Assembly: GCA_002725995.1 (NCBI GenBank)
Contig: PBRQ01000051.1
Coordinates: 1 to 64,000, forward strand
Direction of reading: 5' to 3'
Length of the DNA stretch: 64,000 nucleotides
Origin: Gammaproteobacteria bacterium
Lineage (GTDB): Bacteria > Pseudomonadota > Gammaproteobacteria > Pseudomonadales > Azotimanducaceae
A program made the translations under genes and the position numbers. This document shows, one piece after another, positions 2,036-32,327 of the stretch (position 1 is the first letter of the stretch; every line of letters begins with the position of its first letter). Under the pieces are notes generated by a model, which saw nothing but the letters and a program-made list of their open reading frames with translations, did no database searches and was not told the DNA's origin.

Positions 2036-3796
2036 TCACTGCGATTTCGTTTCATCAATCCAGGCGAGAACCGATTTTTCGACCATCGGTAACGGCAGGC
2101 TGCCATTTTCCAGAATACGGCTATGAAACTGCTTGATATTGAATTGCTCACCGAGTTGTTCTTCAGCAAGATTCCGTAAACGCCTGATTTCAAGCATTCC
2201 CAACATGTAGGAGTTGGCCTGGCCAGGCCAGGAGATATATCGATTGATATCGTTCTGGATATCAATTTCGGCCCACGCTGTATTGTTCATCATGTAGTCA
2301 ACGGACTGCTGGCGCGTCCAGCCTTTTGTATGGATGCCAGAGTCAATAACGAGCCTTGCCGCGCGTGCTGCCTGATCGGACAGGAGTCCCATTAGATCGA
2401 GTGGTCCGTTGTAGAGGTCGAGTTCCTGCGCAACACGTTCGGAGTAAAGTGCCCATCCTTCCCCAAAACCTGAATTCCATATGTAACGTGCAATCGGGTG
2501 CACCCTGTCGCCAAGTTCCAGGGCAATGGCGCCCTGCAAGTGATGCCCAGGGTAGGTCTCATGATACAAGGTCGATTGCTGCGTCGCCTGGGTCCTGCTC
2601 TCAGGCTTTTGCACAGCGATATAATAAATGCCGGGTCTGGTGCCATCTTCAGAGGACGAGTGATATTCGCCAACGCCACTTGCAGCGAATGCGGGGTAGG
2701 GTTTAATGATCACATCAGCTTTTGGTAAATGCCCGAAGATCGCAGTCATCTTTTCTCTGGCAATGGCCAAGGATTCAACCGAGTACGACAGTACGGCTTC
2801 TTCAGAGCGGAAAGTAAATTCCTTGTCCACGTTCACGCGACGTATGAACGTTTCAATTTTCTCATTATTATAGTGTTCTGCAAGAATTTGTAGCATCTCG
2901 GCGCGGATTTTGGCGATCTGGGTGAGACCCATTTTGTGGATCTCATCGGCGCTGGGATCAATGGTTGCAAATGAACGCACGAGCGTTGGGTAGCAGTCTG
3001 CACCATTCGGGTTGTAGCTCAAGGCAATTTCTGTCCGTGCCTGCTTCAGGTATTCATTCTCAATAAAACTGGCGAAGCGTTTTATCGCTGGCGTAATTTC
3101 TTCGACAAATATTTTCTCGACTGCCTGGTCAAACGCGTCATTTTTGGCACGTTTCCCCATGCCAAGAAAGGGATTGTTCTCCTTCAGCAGTGCGCGTACT
3201 TCCTCAGGGACCTTCTCAACCGTTATGCGCGGTGAACTGTAACCGAGCTGAAGACCCATTCGAAGATTGCCTATTTCAGTATCAATGAAGCCATCAACTT
3301 CACTCAGTCTTGCCAGGGACTGATTCTTCAGATCCTCAGTTTCAAGTGGCTGAATATCGAAAAGAAATGGTAGTTCGACATGCCACGCGGTTGTTGTACT
3401 TGTCTCCCAAAGCTCTTTGTGGCAAATCCGGCTCGCTTGTGCAGCAGCTAATTCTTCAAAGAGAAATCCGTAGGTCACCCAATCCCTGCTGCCAATAACC
3501 GCTGGCTCTCCGATTCCTCCAAGTTCCGCAAGCCACTCATCCTCGCGCTTTTGCCACTCGGCTAGCGCATCAAGTGAGTTGTCGAAAAGACGATCATGTC
3601 GTGCACCCTCTATTGAATAGCTGGTCGCTACCTCAGGATAGCGTTCAAGCATTGCTGCCAGGTATTCATCAGCGATGGTTTCTATTTCTCTTGGTGATTT
3701 CGCTGTTTGAGCTGGCTCAAAAGTCTGGCAGGAAGTTAGGAGCAGGGTAGAAAAGAGTAGAGTTCCAGGAAATCCTAATCGAGAGAGATTAAACAA
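2036..3796 (-). CDS. DUF885 family lipoprotein (putative metallopeptidase-like)
   Basis: The protein is 586 aa with a lipoprotein signal peptide: hydrophobic FPGTLLFSTLLL then the lipobox LTSC, with Cys at about residue 23. The body matches DUF885 proteins. It has the zinc-peptidase-like HETYPGHHLQG near residue 412 and EGWALYSE about 40 residues later, a spacing like a third metal ligand. It is probably anchored in the periplasm as a peptidase, but no DUF885 substrate is assumed. It stands alone on the minus strand, with a 219-bp gap before the divergent methyltransferase gene and convergent with the GST. Confidence 0.85.
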   Translation of the reverse strand: MFNLSRLGFPGTLLFSTLLLTSCQTFEPAQTAKSPREIETIADEYLAAMLERYPEVATSYSIEGARHDRLFDNSLDALAEWQKREDEWLAELGGIGEPAVIGSRDWVTYGFLFEELAAAQASRICHKELWETSTTTAWHVELPFLFDIQPLETEDLKNQSLARLSEVDGFIDTEIGNLRMGLQLGYSSPRITVEKVPEEVRALLKENNPFLGMGKRAKNDAFDQAVEKIFVEEITPAIKRFASFIENEYLKQARTEIALSYNPNGADCYPTLVRSFATIDPSADEIHKMGLTQIAKIRAEMLQILAEHYNNEKIETFIRRVNVDKEFTFRSEEAVLSYSVESLAIAREKMTAIFGHLPKADVIIKPYPAFAASGVGEYHSSSEDGTRPGIYYIAVQKPESRTQATQQSTLYHETYPGHHLQGAIALELGDRVHPIARYIWNSGFGEGWALYSERVAQELDLYNGPLDLMGLLSDQAARAARLVIDSGIHTKGWTRQQSVDYMMNNTAWAEIDIQNDINRYISWPGQANSYMLGMLEIRRLRNLAEEQLGEQFNIKQFHSRILENGSLPLPMVEKSVLAWIDETKSQ

Positions 3797-4015
3797 GTAA
3801 GTTCTCCAAAGCGGGTGAATACTAATTATGACCCTAATTCTGCCAGAGATTGACCGCGGGAAATTTGAGCAATATCAACTATAAGTGAAGCATTAAGCTT
3901 CCACCTGATACCGGTTTTTTGGCCGCGAGATAGCTGGATATGTTGCGACAAAAAGCCTACCGGCAGCAATTGGGCGAAATATGTGGACAATGTTCAATGA
4001 GACATCCTGATAACA

Positions 4016-4780
4016 ATGACAATAACTTGTAGGGGCAGGGCTTATGCGATATCTATTTTTTTGTATGGGGTGGTTTGTTACTTGGTATTCCTGGGCAGTT
4101 TCCTTTACGCAATCGGTTTTGTTGGTAACTTCATCGTTCCCAAGTCTATGGACACGGGTTCTGGTACACCATTCGTTGAAGCCTTAATAATTAACATCTT
4201 GTTGCTGGGCGTTTTCGCTGTTCAACATAGCGTGATGGCACGGCAGGGTTTCAAAAAGCAGTGGACGAAGATTATTCCTGCTCCCGTCGAGAGAAGCACT
4301 TATGTGCTAGCTTCAAGCCTGGCGCTGATACTTCTTTTCTGGCAGTGGCGCCCCATGGGTAGCGTGGTCTGGGATGTTTCAGGGTCCGGCTTGGGTACAC
4401 TGCTTATCGGCATATCTTTCCTTGGCTGGCTGTTCGTTCTTGTTAGCACCTTTTTGATCGATCATTTCGAGCTGTTTGGATTGAGACAGGTTTATCTCAA
4501 CCTCAAGGGTGAGGCGCAGCCTGACAGCGAATTTAAGAAACCAGTATTTTACGGCTTTGTCCGTCACCCTATTTACACTGGTTTCACCGTGGCCTTTTTT
4601 GCCACGCCCGTTATGACGACTGCGCACCTGTTGTTCGCAGTAGCCACTCTGGGGTATGTCCTGATCGGTATCTTTCTTGAGGAAAAGGATCTGGTTTCTG
4701 CCTTTGGCAGTGAATACGAAGACTACAAGTCCCAGGTCTCAATGATTGTTCCCCTGCCACCTAAGAAATCGAGCCAGTAG
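4016..4780 (+). CDS. mddA: methanethiol S-methyltransferase-like integral membrane protein
   Basis: This 254-aa protein has about six hydrophobic segments and belongs to the isoprenylcysteine carboxyl methyltransferase-like superfamily. Features typical of MddA are FVGNFIVPKSMDTG (35-48), QHSVMAR (70-76), RSTYVLASSL (93-102), HFELFGLRQVY (150-160), RHPIYTGF (183-190) and EEKDL (222-226). MddA methylates methanethiol with S-adenosylmethionine to give dimethyl sulfide. The RHP..GF and EE.DL motifs form the SAM-binding C-terminal part in this superfamily. It appears monocistronic. A general NnrU/ICMT-like methyltransferase with another thiol substrate is the alternative. Confidence 0.75.
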   Translation: MTITCRGRAYAISIFLYGVVCYLVFLGSFLYAIGFVGNFIVPKSMDTGSGTPFVEALIINILLLGVFAVQHSVMARQGFKKQWTKIIPAPVERSTYVLASSLALILLFWQWRPMGSVVWDVSGSGLGTLLIGISFLGWLFVLVSTFLIDHFELFGLRQVYLNLKGEAQPDSEFKKPVFYGFVRHPIYTGFTVAFFATPVMTTAHLLFAVATLGYVLIGIFLEEKDLVSAFGSEYEDYKSQVSMIVPLPPKKSSQ

Positions 4781-4829
4781 CGCCGTATCGCCCCAGATAA
4801 TCCCGGTGTGAATATTGGTTTTGCATTCG

Positions 4830-5357
4830 ATGAAGAAGAACGAAGGCAAGGAAGAAGACAAGGTCTATCACCCGGGTAAGTCATTCTTTGCAGCGGTGGT
4901 GATGTACTTTATCGACACCGTGATGATGAATCAGGGTGCGCTTGCATTCATACTTGTGATCATCATGGCTTTCTGGTGGCTGCCAAAATCAGTTTTCTTG
5001 CTGTTCAAGAAGAGGAGCCTGAGGGAGCCACTCTTTAAGATCGGGATCTACGGCCTCATGGCAGCCCTGGTATTTTCAACCAATATCATGAACAACAATA
5101 TGGCGCGGCAAGGTGCCGAGGTTCTGGTTGACCGCATTAATCAATATCATGTGGACAAGGGGGTCTATCCTGAGACACTGCAGGACCTGGTCCCCGCTTA
5201 TATAGAGGCAATACCCGCTGCTAAATATACGATGGTTTCTGGTGAGTTTATCTACATGAATGTTGATGAACATATTACGTTTTTCTATGTTCATTTCCCG
5301 CCATTTGGTCGACAGTTCTATAATTTTGACACCCAGGCATGGTTTTACCTGGACTAG
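4830..5357 (+). CDS. hypothetical membrane-anchored protein
   Basis: I do not recognise a family. From the ATG at 4830 the protein is about 175 aa. An in-frame TTG at 4815 would add five residues, and neither has a good ribosome-binding site. Two hydrophobic segments (around 25-60 and 75-95) are followed by a soluble part with YPETLQDLVPAYIEAIP. That wording resembles the pseudopilin-like GspG C-terminal pattern in which a short helix precedes the beta region. It ends in an aromatic-rich tail. It follows the MddA-like gene by about 50 bp in the same direction and may be co-transcribed. Confidence 0.6.
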   Translation: MKKNEGKEEDKVYHPGKSFFAAVVMYFIDTVMMNQGALAFILVIIMAFWWLPKSVFLLFKKRSLREPLFKIGIYGLMAALVFSTNIMNNNMARQGAEVLVDRINQYHVDKGVYPETLQDLVPAYIEAIPAAKYTMVSGEFIYMNVDEHITFFYVHFPPFGRQFYNFDTQAWFYLD

Positions 5358-29428: not shown

Positions 29429-30779
<1,351 letters not shown>

Positions 30780-30967
30780 ATGGCTCCTGGTTTCAGGAGA
30801 GAGAGTTTTACCGGGTTTTGAAAAGTCGCAGCTTGGAGTAAATGGAATAGTTGTATATTGAAAGAACTAGCCGCTCGATATCTGAAACATGGCAGGGAGC
30901 TGTTTAGATTAAAACGTAAAGAGGTGTGGTAGGGGCTACCTAATTGTAACGAAACAGGACAGTCAAT

Positions 30968-31834
30968 ATTAAATCTCTATTTCTTGAAGAGACAACAACC
31001 GGATACAAGGCGTTAGGGTTTTGTATTTTATCGTCCATTCTTATTGTGGTTGATCATTTGTCCGGCTACCTTGATGATGTTCGTGCGGGGATGACTGTTG
31101 TCGTCACCCCATTGCTGATAGCTGCCGACATCCCTAGTCGAGAGGCGAAGGAAATCGGTGAAATATTCAGCTCTCGTGGAGATATGAGAGATTATATCCA
31201 CGCCCTTGAGCAAGAGCTTATCCTCGCGAGAGCAAAGACTGAGAAAATGGCAGCTCTGACCGCAGAAAATAATCGTTTGCGTGACCTCCTAGGCTCAGCA
31301 GCAAAATTGCAGGACAACGTCCTCGTGGCTGAACTAATCAGCGTGGATCCTAACCCTGAAAAACAAGAGGTTGTCATCGATAAGGGCAGTGGTGATGGCG
31401 TTTTTGTGGGTCAACCTCTACTGGATGCGCAGGGGTTAATGGGGCAGGTAATATCGGTCAGCATGTTTACCAGTCGCGTGATGTTGATCAGCGATCAATC
31501 GCATTCAGTCCCTGTACAGGTTTCTCGAAGTAATCTAAGGTTGATTGCTCAGGGAACAGGCACCATACATCAGTTGGAGTTAATGCACGTTCAGGATACC
31601 GCCGATATTCGCCTGGGTGATCTGCTGGTGAGTTCAGGCTTAGGCAACAGATTCCCTGTTGGTTACCCTGTAGGCATAGTGGAGAAAGTTGAGCACGATC
31701 CTGGCCGCCCATTTGCTGTCGTAAAAGCAGTACCTAGCGCTTTACTGGACAGGAGCAGGCACGTATTACTGGTGTTTACAGAGGAAAGGTTAGCGAGGGT
31801 ACCGGGAGGGAGGCAAAGTGGAAGCGGTGGCTGA
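30968..31834 (+). CDS. mreC: rod shape-determining protein MreC, ATT start proposed
   Basis: A GTG at 31046 would give 262 aa, but the hydrophobic segment ALGFCILSSILIVVDH needed to anchor MreC lies upstream in the same frame. The family normally starts IKSLF or similar, and the frame has ATT at 30968 giving IKSLFLEE. AGGA at 30956-30959, 8 nt before it, is a plausible ribosome-binding site. No ATG, GTG or TTG occurs between the upstream stop and 31046. The rest has a coiled coil (DYIHALEQELILARAKTEKMAALTAEN) and the two beta domains that bind other rod-complex proteins. About 288 aa. Confidence 0.88.
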   Translation: MKSLFLEETTTGYKALGFCILSSILIVVDHLSGYLDDVRAGMTVVVTPLLIAADIPSREAKEIGEIFSSRGDMRDYIHALEQELILARAKTEKMAALTAENNRLRDLLGSAAKLQDNVLVAELISVDPNPEKQEVVIDKGSGDGVFVGQPLLDAQGLMGQVISVSMFTSRVMLISDQSHSVPVQVSRSNLRLIAQGTGTIHQLELMHVQDTADIRLGDLLVSSGLGNRFPVGYPVGIVEKVEHDPGRPFAVVKAVPSALLDRSRHVLLVFTEERLARVPGGRQSGSGG

Positions 31835-32327
31835 TCGAAGGGCGAATGGTCTGTGGGTCATTGTCGCCTCGTTTATGGTGGCGATGGTACTGGCAATCGT
31901 GCCAATACCGGATAGCGCACCTTTAGAAATAGCGTACTTGCGGCCGGAGTGGATTGTTCTGGTACTTCTTTACTGGGTGATGGCCATACCAAGCCGGGTT
32001 GGCATAATGATCGCCTGCCTCGTTGGATTGTTTACGGACGTGCTGCTAGGGAGCTTATTAGGACAGCACGCCATCGGGTACATTGCCGTTGCATACATTG
32101 CTGCCAGTTTGTACCAGAGGCTGCGGATGTTTTCCATTTGGCAGCAAAGCCTGGTGGTGTTCGCGGCGGTCGGATTGAATCAGTTAATTAATGTCTGGAT
32201 AGAGAGTATTGCGGGACTCACGGAGTGGAATATCTGGTATTTGCTGGCATCTGTCACCAGTGCTTTGCTTTGGCCCTGGGTGTTTCTACTGCTACGTTAC
32301 CTACGGCGCCGTTTTGATGTGAGCTAA
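31818..32327 (+). CDS. mreD: rod shape-determining protein MreD
   Basis: This 169-aa protein has about five membrane helices with IPDSAPLEIAYLRPEWIVLVLLYWVM, IACLVGLFTDVLLGSLLGQHAIGYIAVAY and FAAVGLNQLINVWIES. The start is GTG at 31818, overlapping the mreC end by 17 nt. MreD is the membrane partner that completes the MreBCD rod complex. Confidence 0.95.
   Translation: MEAVADRRANGLWVIVASFMVAMVLAIVPIPDSAPLEIAYLRPEWIVLVLLYWVMAIPSRVGIMIACLVGLFTDVLLGSLLGQHAIGYIAVAYIAASLYQRLRMFSIWQQSLVVFAAVGLNQLINVWIESIAGLTEWNIWYLLASVTSALLWPWVFLLLRYLRRRFDVS

Follow-up and report, generated by a model that had tools for sequence, protein, structure and literature searches.

At which codon does translation of mreC begin when its reading frame offers no usual start codon ahead of the membrane anchor? 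The question arose from a stretch of 64,000 nucleotides (positions 1 to 64,000 of contig PBRQ01000051.1, assembly GCA_002725995.1, from a gammaproteobacterium of the Azotimanducaceae), which we call the window. The initial annotation proposed that mreC starts at an ATT codon, since the only usual start in frame would cut off the membrane anchor, and pointed to infC as the known example of ATT starts, where they allow IF3-dependent control. The relevant features, all on the forward strand, are as follows.

29739..30779 (+), mreB, with an ATG start, 188 nt before the mreC start
30956..30959 (+), AGGA, the Shine-Dalgarno core, 8 nt before the ATT
30968..30970 (+), the ATT start codon of mreC
30968..31834 (+), the mreC coding sequence read from the ATT start (288 codons plus stop)
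31046..31048 (+), GTG, codon 27 of mreC and the first usual start codon in frame, rejected as the start
31818..32327 (+), mreD, with a GTG start, overlapping the end of mreC by 17 nt

The observation was found to be exact. The frame is open from 30950 to the stop ending at 31834, and its in-frame usual starts are, in order, GTG 31046, TTG 31058, ATG 31091, and TTG 31112, with none between 30950 and 31045. The product read from the ATT matched the MreC profiles TIGR00219 (185.7 bits, cut-off 92.75) and PF04085 (138.8 bits, cut-off 28), and it is flanked by mreB (PF06723, NF010539) and mreD (PF04093, TIGR03426) in the mreB-mreC-mreD order. Read from the ATT, the protein has an N-terminal hydrophobic segment at residues 15-31 (17-residue mean 2.09), as judged by hydropathy only without a topology program. 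A start at GTG 31046 would remove this strongest segment but leave a weaker one (1.65), so the statement that it cuts off the anchor holds for the usual MreC anchor, although some hydrophobic sequence is left. Pairing with the anti-Shine-Dalgarno tail was -4.0 kcal/mol before the ATT and +1.2 kcal/mol before GTG 31046.

Conservation of the ATT in relatives had been named in advance as a check on this start. We searched 58 related genomes, including the window's own, and found mreC in 57. At the codon aligned with the window's ATT, the four congeners all have ATT. Codons 2-26 differ from theirs by 35 synonymous and 16 nonsynonymous changes, close to the ratio further into the gene (172 and 66 in codons 52-151), indicating that this stretch is coding. 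Over the 57 loci, window included, the start was ATT, ATC, or ATA (collectively ATH) in 43, a usual start (ATG, GTG, or TTG) in 13, and unclear in 1.

We then asked how far the trait reaches. In a class-wide sample of 274 genomes, 245 had mreC, and beyond the loci already read we took 128 of the 245, leaning toward the better-scoring ones, which gave ATH in 21 of 28 and in 71 of 100. From a phylum-wide sample (209 of 249 genomes with a match), we read 20 Gammaproteobacteria, with ATH in 8 and usual starts in 12, and later 20 low-scoring ones, all of which had a usual start within 9 codons before the aligned site and none of which had ATH at it, although which of several usual starts is used there is uncertain. 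Together with E. coli, which has ATG, this makes 226 gammaproteobacterial loci, of which 143 are ATH, 75 usual, 7 unclear, and 1 GTT. Some of the usual-start loci look, by sequence type, like those of Vibrio, Burkholderiales, Xanthomonadaceae, or Pasteurellaceae. Among named genomes, the best 80 matches all have ATH (ATT 48, ATC 28, ATA 4). Of these, 49 were titled Pseudomonas, one being a complete Pseudomonas fluorescens chromosome, and others were Stutzerimonas, Haliea, Halioglobus, Gilvimarinus, Marinimicrobium, Oleiphilus, and one Ectothiorhodospiraceae. However, this set is biased to relatives of the query and overlaps the sampled set. Of 19 loci from other classes, 17 were placed in the usual class and 2 left unclear after reading.

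A locus was counted as ATH if the codon stands at the aligned start or within 3 codons of it, and 9 of the 223 ATH loci (named ones included) are shifted by 1-3 codons. Labels were set by hand before tree building (L numbers denote individual loci and G numbers genomes). Nine loci were left out as unclear (L042, L198, L205, L214, L225, L245, L265, outgroup L294, L306), one GTT locus was kept apart (L267), ten were put in the usual-start class (L173, L253, L266, L286, outgroup L290, L299, L300, L304, L305, L307), and the other outgroup loci were set to that class by rule after reading. An automatic rule had called 4 of the 19 outgroup loci ATH (L290, L294, L299, L307), which we overruled because ATG or another usual start lies close by, or left unclear. 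The 20 low-scoring loci were added later and are not in the tree. L267 (G295) has GGAGG just upstream of its GTT and neither ATH nor a usual start close by, and L233 (G181) reads ATC-GTT, which recalls the GTC/GTT start of Streptomyces sigR. In L079 (G168) and L191 (G284), which belong to the same genus, the frame begins directly after a stop with ATC TAC CGT/CGC, three codons before the usual position, so the ATH start seems to have shifted upstream in this lineage. The window's own genome also has a second mreC on another contig (C49, 10.5 kb; match 604-1299 within locus L298, which covers 1-1500), with ATG near the start of its frame and followed by matches to mrdA (2105-3874) and rodA (3931-4965). 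This is possibly a contaminant contig of the draft genome, its origin not having been determined.

To see whether the trait belongs to mreC rather than to the code of these genomes or to our method, we counted loci in which no usual start lies in frame between the upstream stop and the conserved N-terminus. For mreC this was 94 of 138 with the limit at residue 12 and 118 of 138 with the limit at residue 5, the 138 being the high-scoring loci (L001-L030, L060-L167), whereas it was 0 of 128 for mreB (residue 12), 0 of 136 for mreD (residue 14), 0 of 27 for rodA, and 0 of 27 for mrdA. The rodA test is weaker, as 12 loci have their nearest usual start over 8 codons from the reference point, and rodZ was not included. 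The trait thus belongs to mreC. A special initiator tRNA was not pursued because mreB, mreD, rodA, and mrdA have usual starts. In infC, the classic case, ATH was found near the start in 29 of 30 relatives, 25 of them without a usual start in the stretch shown. In L310 (G037), L324 (G014), L327 (G042), and L330 (G010), a usual start lies close upstream (or, in L324, also at the reference point), so the infC start may have switched in some relatives. L314 (G044) shows no ATH in infC but TTG codons instead, while the mreC of the same genome (L022) has ATC. The infC of the window's own genome starts at ATC.

On a FastTree tree of 305 loci over roughly 160 residues, the fewest changes between ATH and usual starts were 30, about 22 from ATH to usual and 8 the other way. 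With six codon states, about 53 changes fell within ATH, about 13 went from ATH to ATG, and about 14 from ATG to ATH. ATH has thus been both lost and regained, and the ancestral state is not settled (30 changes with a usual root, 33 with an ATH root). About 36 of the 53 are T/C transitions, so mutation bias explains part of the excess. From ATA, which is one transition away from ATG, about 0.4 changes went to ATG against 4.8 to ATC or ATT, although these are few events. The next codon switched between AAA and AAG 41 times, and it is AAA, AAG, AAC, or AAT in 136 of 143 ATH loci.

Shine-Dalgarno pairing averaged -7.18 kcal/mol for ATH (143 loci), -3.8 for usual starts (55 loci), and -1.93 at 990 random internal positions, and it was -5 or stronger in 201 of 223 ATH and 20 of 55 usual loci, named loci included. 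However, the window's own site (-4.0) is weaker than the ATH average, and a comparison of independent pairs was too small to decide (5 supported pairs, median p 0.25), so the link between ATH and strong Shine-Dalgarno sites is not shown free of descent, and whether a strong site offsets the weak codon is left undecided by these data. The Pseudomonas start can be drawn as the loop of a small hairpin, but other lineages lack those bases by eye (no fold was computed), and this reading was rejected.

A trace of the start may be present in the literature. The P. aeruginosa MreC residues Pro114/Phe115, Arg175, and Glu188/Arg190 and the construct 97-258 (PMC8137920; PDB 6zlv, 6zm0) fall, counted by hand on an alignment, at residues 130/131, 191, 204/206, and 113-274 of a Pseudomonas MreC read from ATC. 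The offset is 16 throughout, implying that the published protein begins at codon 17, inside the hydrophobic segment, and a missed ATH start 16 codons upstream would explain it. That codon is GTG in relatives such as L095 and L098, but not in L093, which is the closest to the P. aeruginosa chain (96.6% over 176 residues); PAO1 itself was not among our loci. E. coli MreC in 7eft (MKPIFSRGPSL) aligns residue 1 to residue 1 with the Pseudomonas frame read from ATC.

The interpretation that mreC starts at the ATT is supported by conservation across many gammaproteobacterial families, by the gene-level controls, and by the position of the E. coli ATG, although no peptide or ribosome-profiling evidence was at hand for any ATH mreC. 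In the explanation that we consider likely, mreC is translated from the AUU to give an N-terminus of Met-Lys-Ser-Leu-Phe, and AUU, AUC, or AUA has been kept there in many families, usually next to a good Shine-Dalgarno site and an AAR or AAY second codon. The sequences themselves support the position of the start, its conservation, its specificity to the gene, and the Shine-Dalgarno contrast, whereas we infer that the ordinary initiator fMet-tRNA reads the codon, that initiation is inefficient because IF3 destabilizes complexes on such codons, and that MreC output is low. E. coli IF3 fidelity mutants raise such translation 3- to 15-fold (PMC5472188), and AUU/AUA starts with extended Shine-Dalgarno sites gave about 10% of AUG expression in S. 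aureus in poor medium, and up to 30% for ccpN in rich medium (PMC13009471). By analogy, the mreC site would dock ribosomes well and commit slowly, keeping MreC, and mreD which overlaps its end, low relative to MreB, which is made from an ATG just upstream. That usual-start loci have weaker Shine-Dalgarno sites fits a common low target reached in two ways. The IF3-dependent control suggested by analogy with infC is plausible, but neither the response to IF3 nor protein levels were measured here. It is possible, though doubtful on present evidence, that mreC and mreD form part of an IF3 regulon in many Gammaproteobacteria, in which free IF3 and initiation fidelity set how much of the Rod complex scaffold is made, so that the state of the translation machinery feeds directly into cell-wall elongation and cell width.

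Among the alternatives, a start at GTG 31046 or another internal usual start, as an annotation pipeline would choose, is very unlikely. It has in its favor that this GTG is the first usual start in frame and that the published P. aeruginosa numbering corresponds to an internal start. However, the GTG lacks Shine-Dalgarno pairing, its use removes the N-terminal hydrophobic segment, and codons 2-26 evolve like coding sequence. In the 80 named loci, moreover, the first in-frame usual start after the ATH falls at many different codons, most often 13, 11, or 17, while the ATH position is fixed, and E. coli starts at that position. Equally improbable is that the ATH is an internal isoleucine codon of a longer protein begun upstream or in another frame, by readthrough or frameshift, although third-base variation limited to T, C, and A is what such a codon would show. 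Of 222 ATH loci with a visible upstream stop, 205 have no usual start between the stop and the ATH, 37 have three codons or fewer there, and 15 have at most one, and in L079, L176, and L191 a stop directly precedes the ATC. In addition, residues upstream are not shared between families (by eye), the conserved upstream signal is purine-rich, at -12 to -7, and other relatives have ATG, GTG, or TTG exactly at this codon.

A sequencing or assembly error hiding an ATG could be imagined for a draft genome of 102 contigs, but the same codon class occurs in congeners, in many independent assemblies, and in a complete chromosome, so error is excluded for the family and is most unlikely for this genome. 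The rival that retains some weight, though we think it unlikely, is that the ATH start is tolerated rather than selected, the cell needing little MreC, so that a weak start persists by descent without a regulatory role. The repeated changes to usual starts, the lineages such as E. coli that do without ATH, and the T/C transition bias speak for it, whereas the excess of changes within ATH over those to ATG, the scarcity of changes from ATA to ATG, and the turnover at the next codon speak against it. So does the finding that, in 36 groups of prokaryotic genomes, 1 of 61,358 ancestral AUG starts switched to AUU (PMC5622118), which shows how unusual such starts are, though that study presumably relies on annotated starts.

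Few bacterial genes are known to keep a non-AUG start through evolution, and here a central cell-shape gene does so in many gammaproteobacterial families, Pseudomonas included, which points to a deliberately weak protein start that gene annotation can miss. The MreC N-terminus, which holds the cytoplasmic tail and membrane anchor, appears to be cut short in published P. aeruginosa residue numbers and may be so in other annotations. We found no report of such a start for mreC in searches of open-licence papers judged from their listings. A P. aeruginosa proteogenomics study (PMC7603352) added TTG, GTG, and CTG as alternative starts, so an ATH start would hardly be found, while a Xanthomonas study (PMC5559785) reports ATT for infC but does not contain "mre" in its main text. 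The finding gives a testable link between initiation fidelity and cell-wall growth, and natural comparisons with lineages that use a usual start.

Conserved non-canonical starts that limit expression are already known, and infC is not the only example. The infC gene, which encodes IF3 and has an AUU/AUC/AUA start with autoregulation, shares with mreC an ATH start, mostly followed by a lysine codon, but mreC does not encode an initiation factor, so there is no self-feedback, and control by IF3 would be one-way. In E. coli pcnB, for which PMC4245954 states the AUU start, a gene other than an initiation factor is held down by AUU, which its authors proved by experiment according to the title of their paper, although the gene and function are different. 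The S. aureus genes cvfC1 and ccpN have conserved AUU/AUA starts in which a weak codon is offset by extended Shine-Dalgarno pairing (PMC13009471), but they are Gram-positive genes with other functions and are supported by retapamulin profiling and reporters, which mreC lacks. Streptomyces sigR has a conserved non-canonical start that lowers a product relative to its partner and is misannotated in genomes (PMC5472188), but its codon is GTC rather than ATH, and repression by IF3 has been shown experimentally there.
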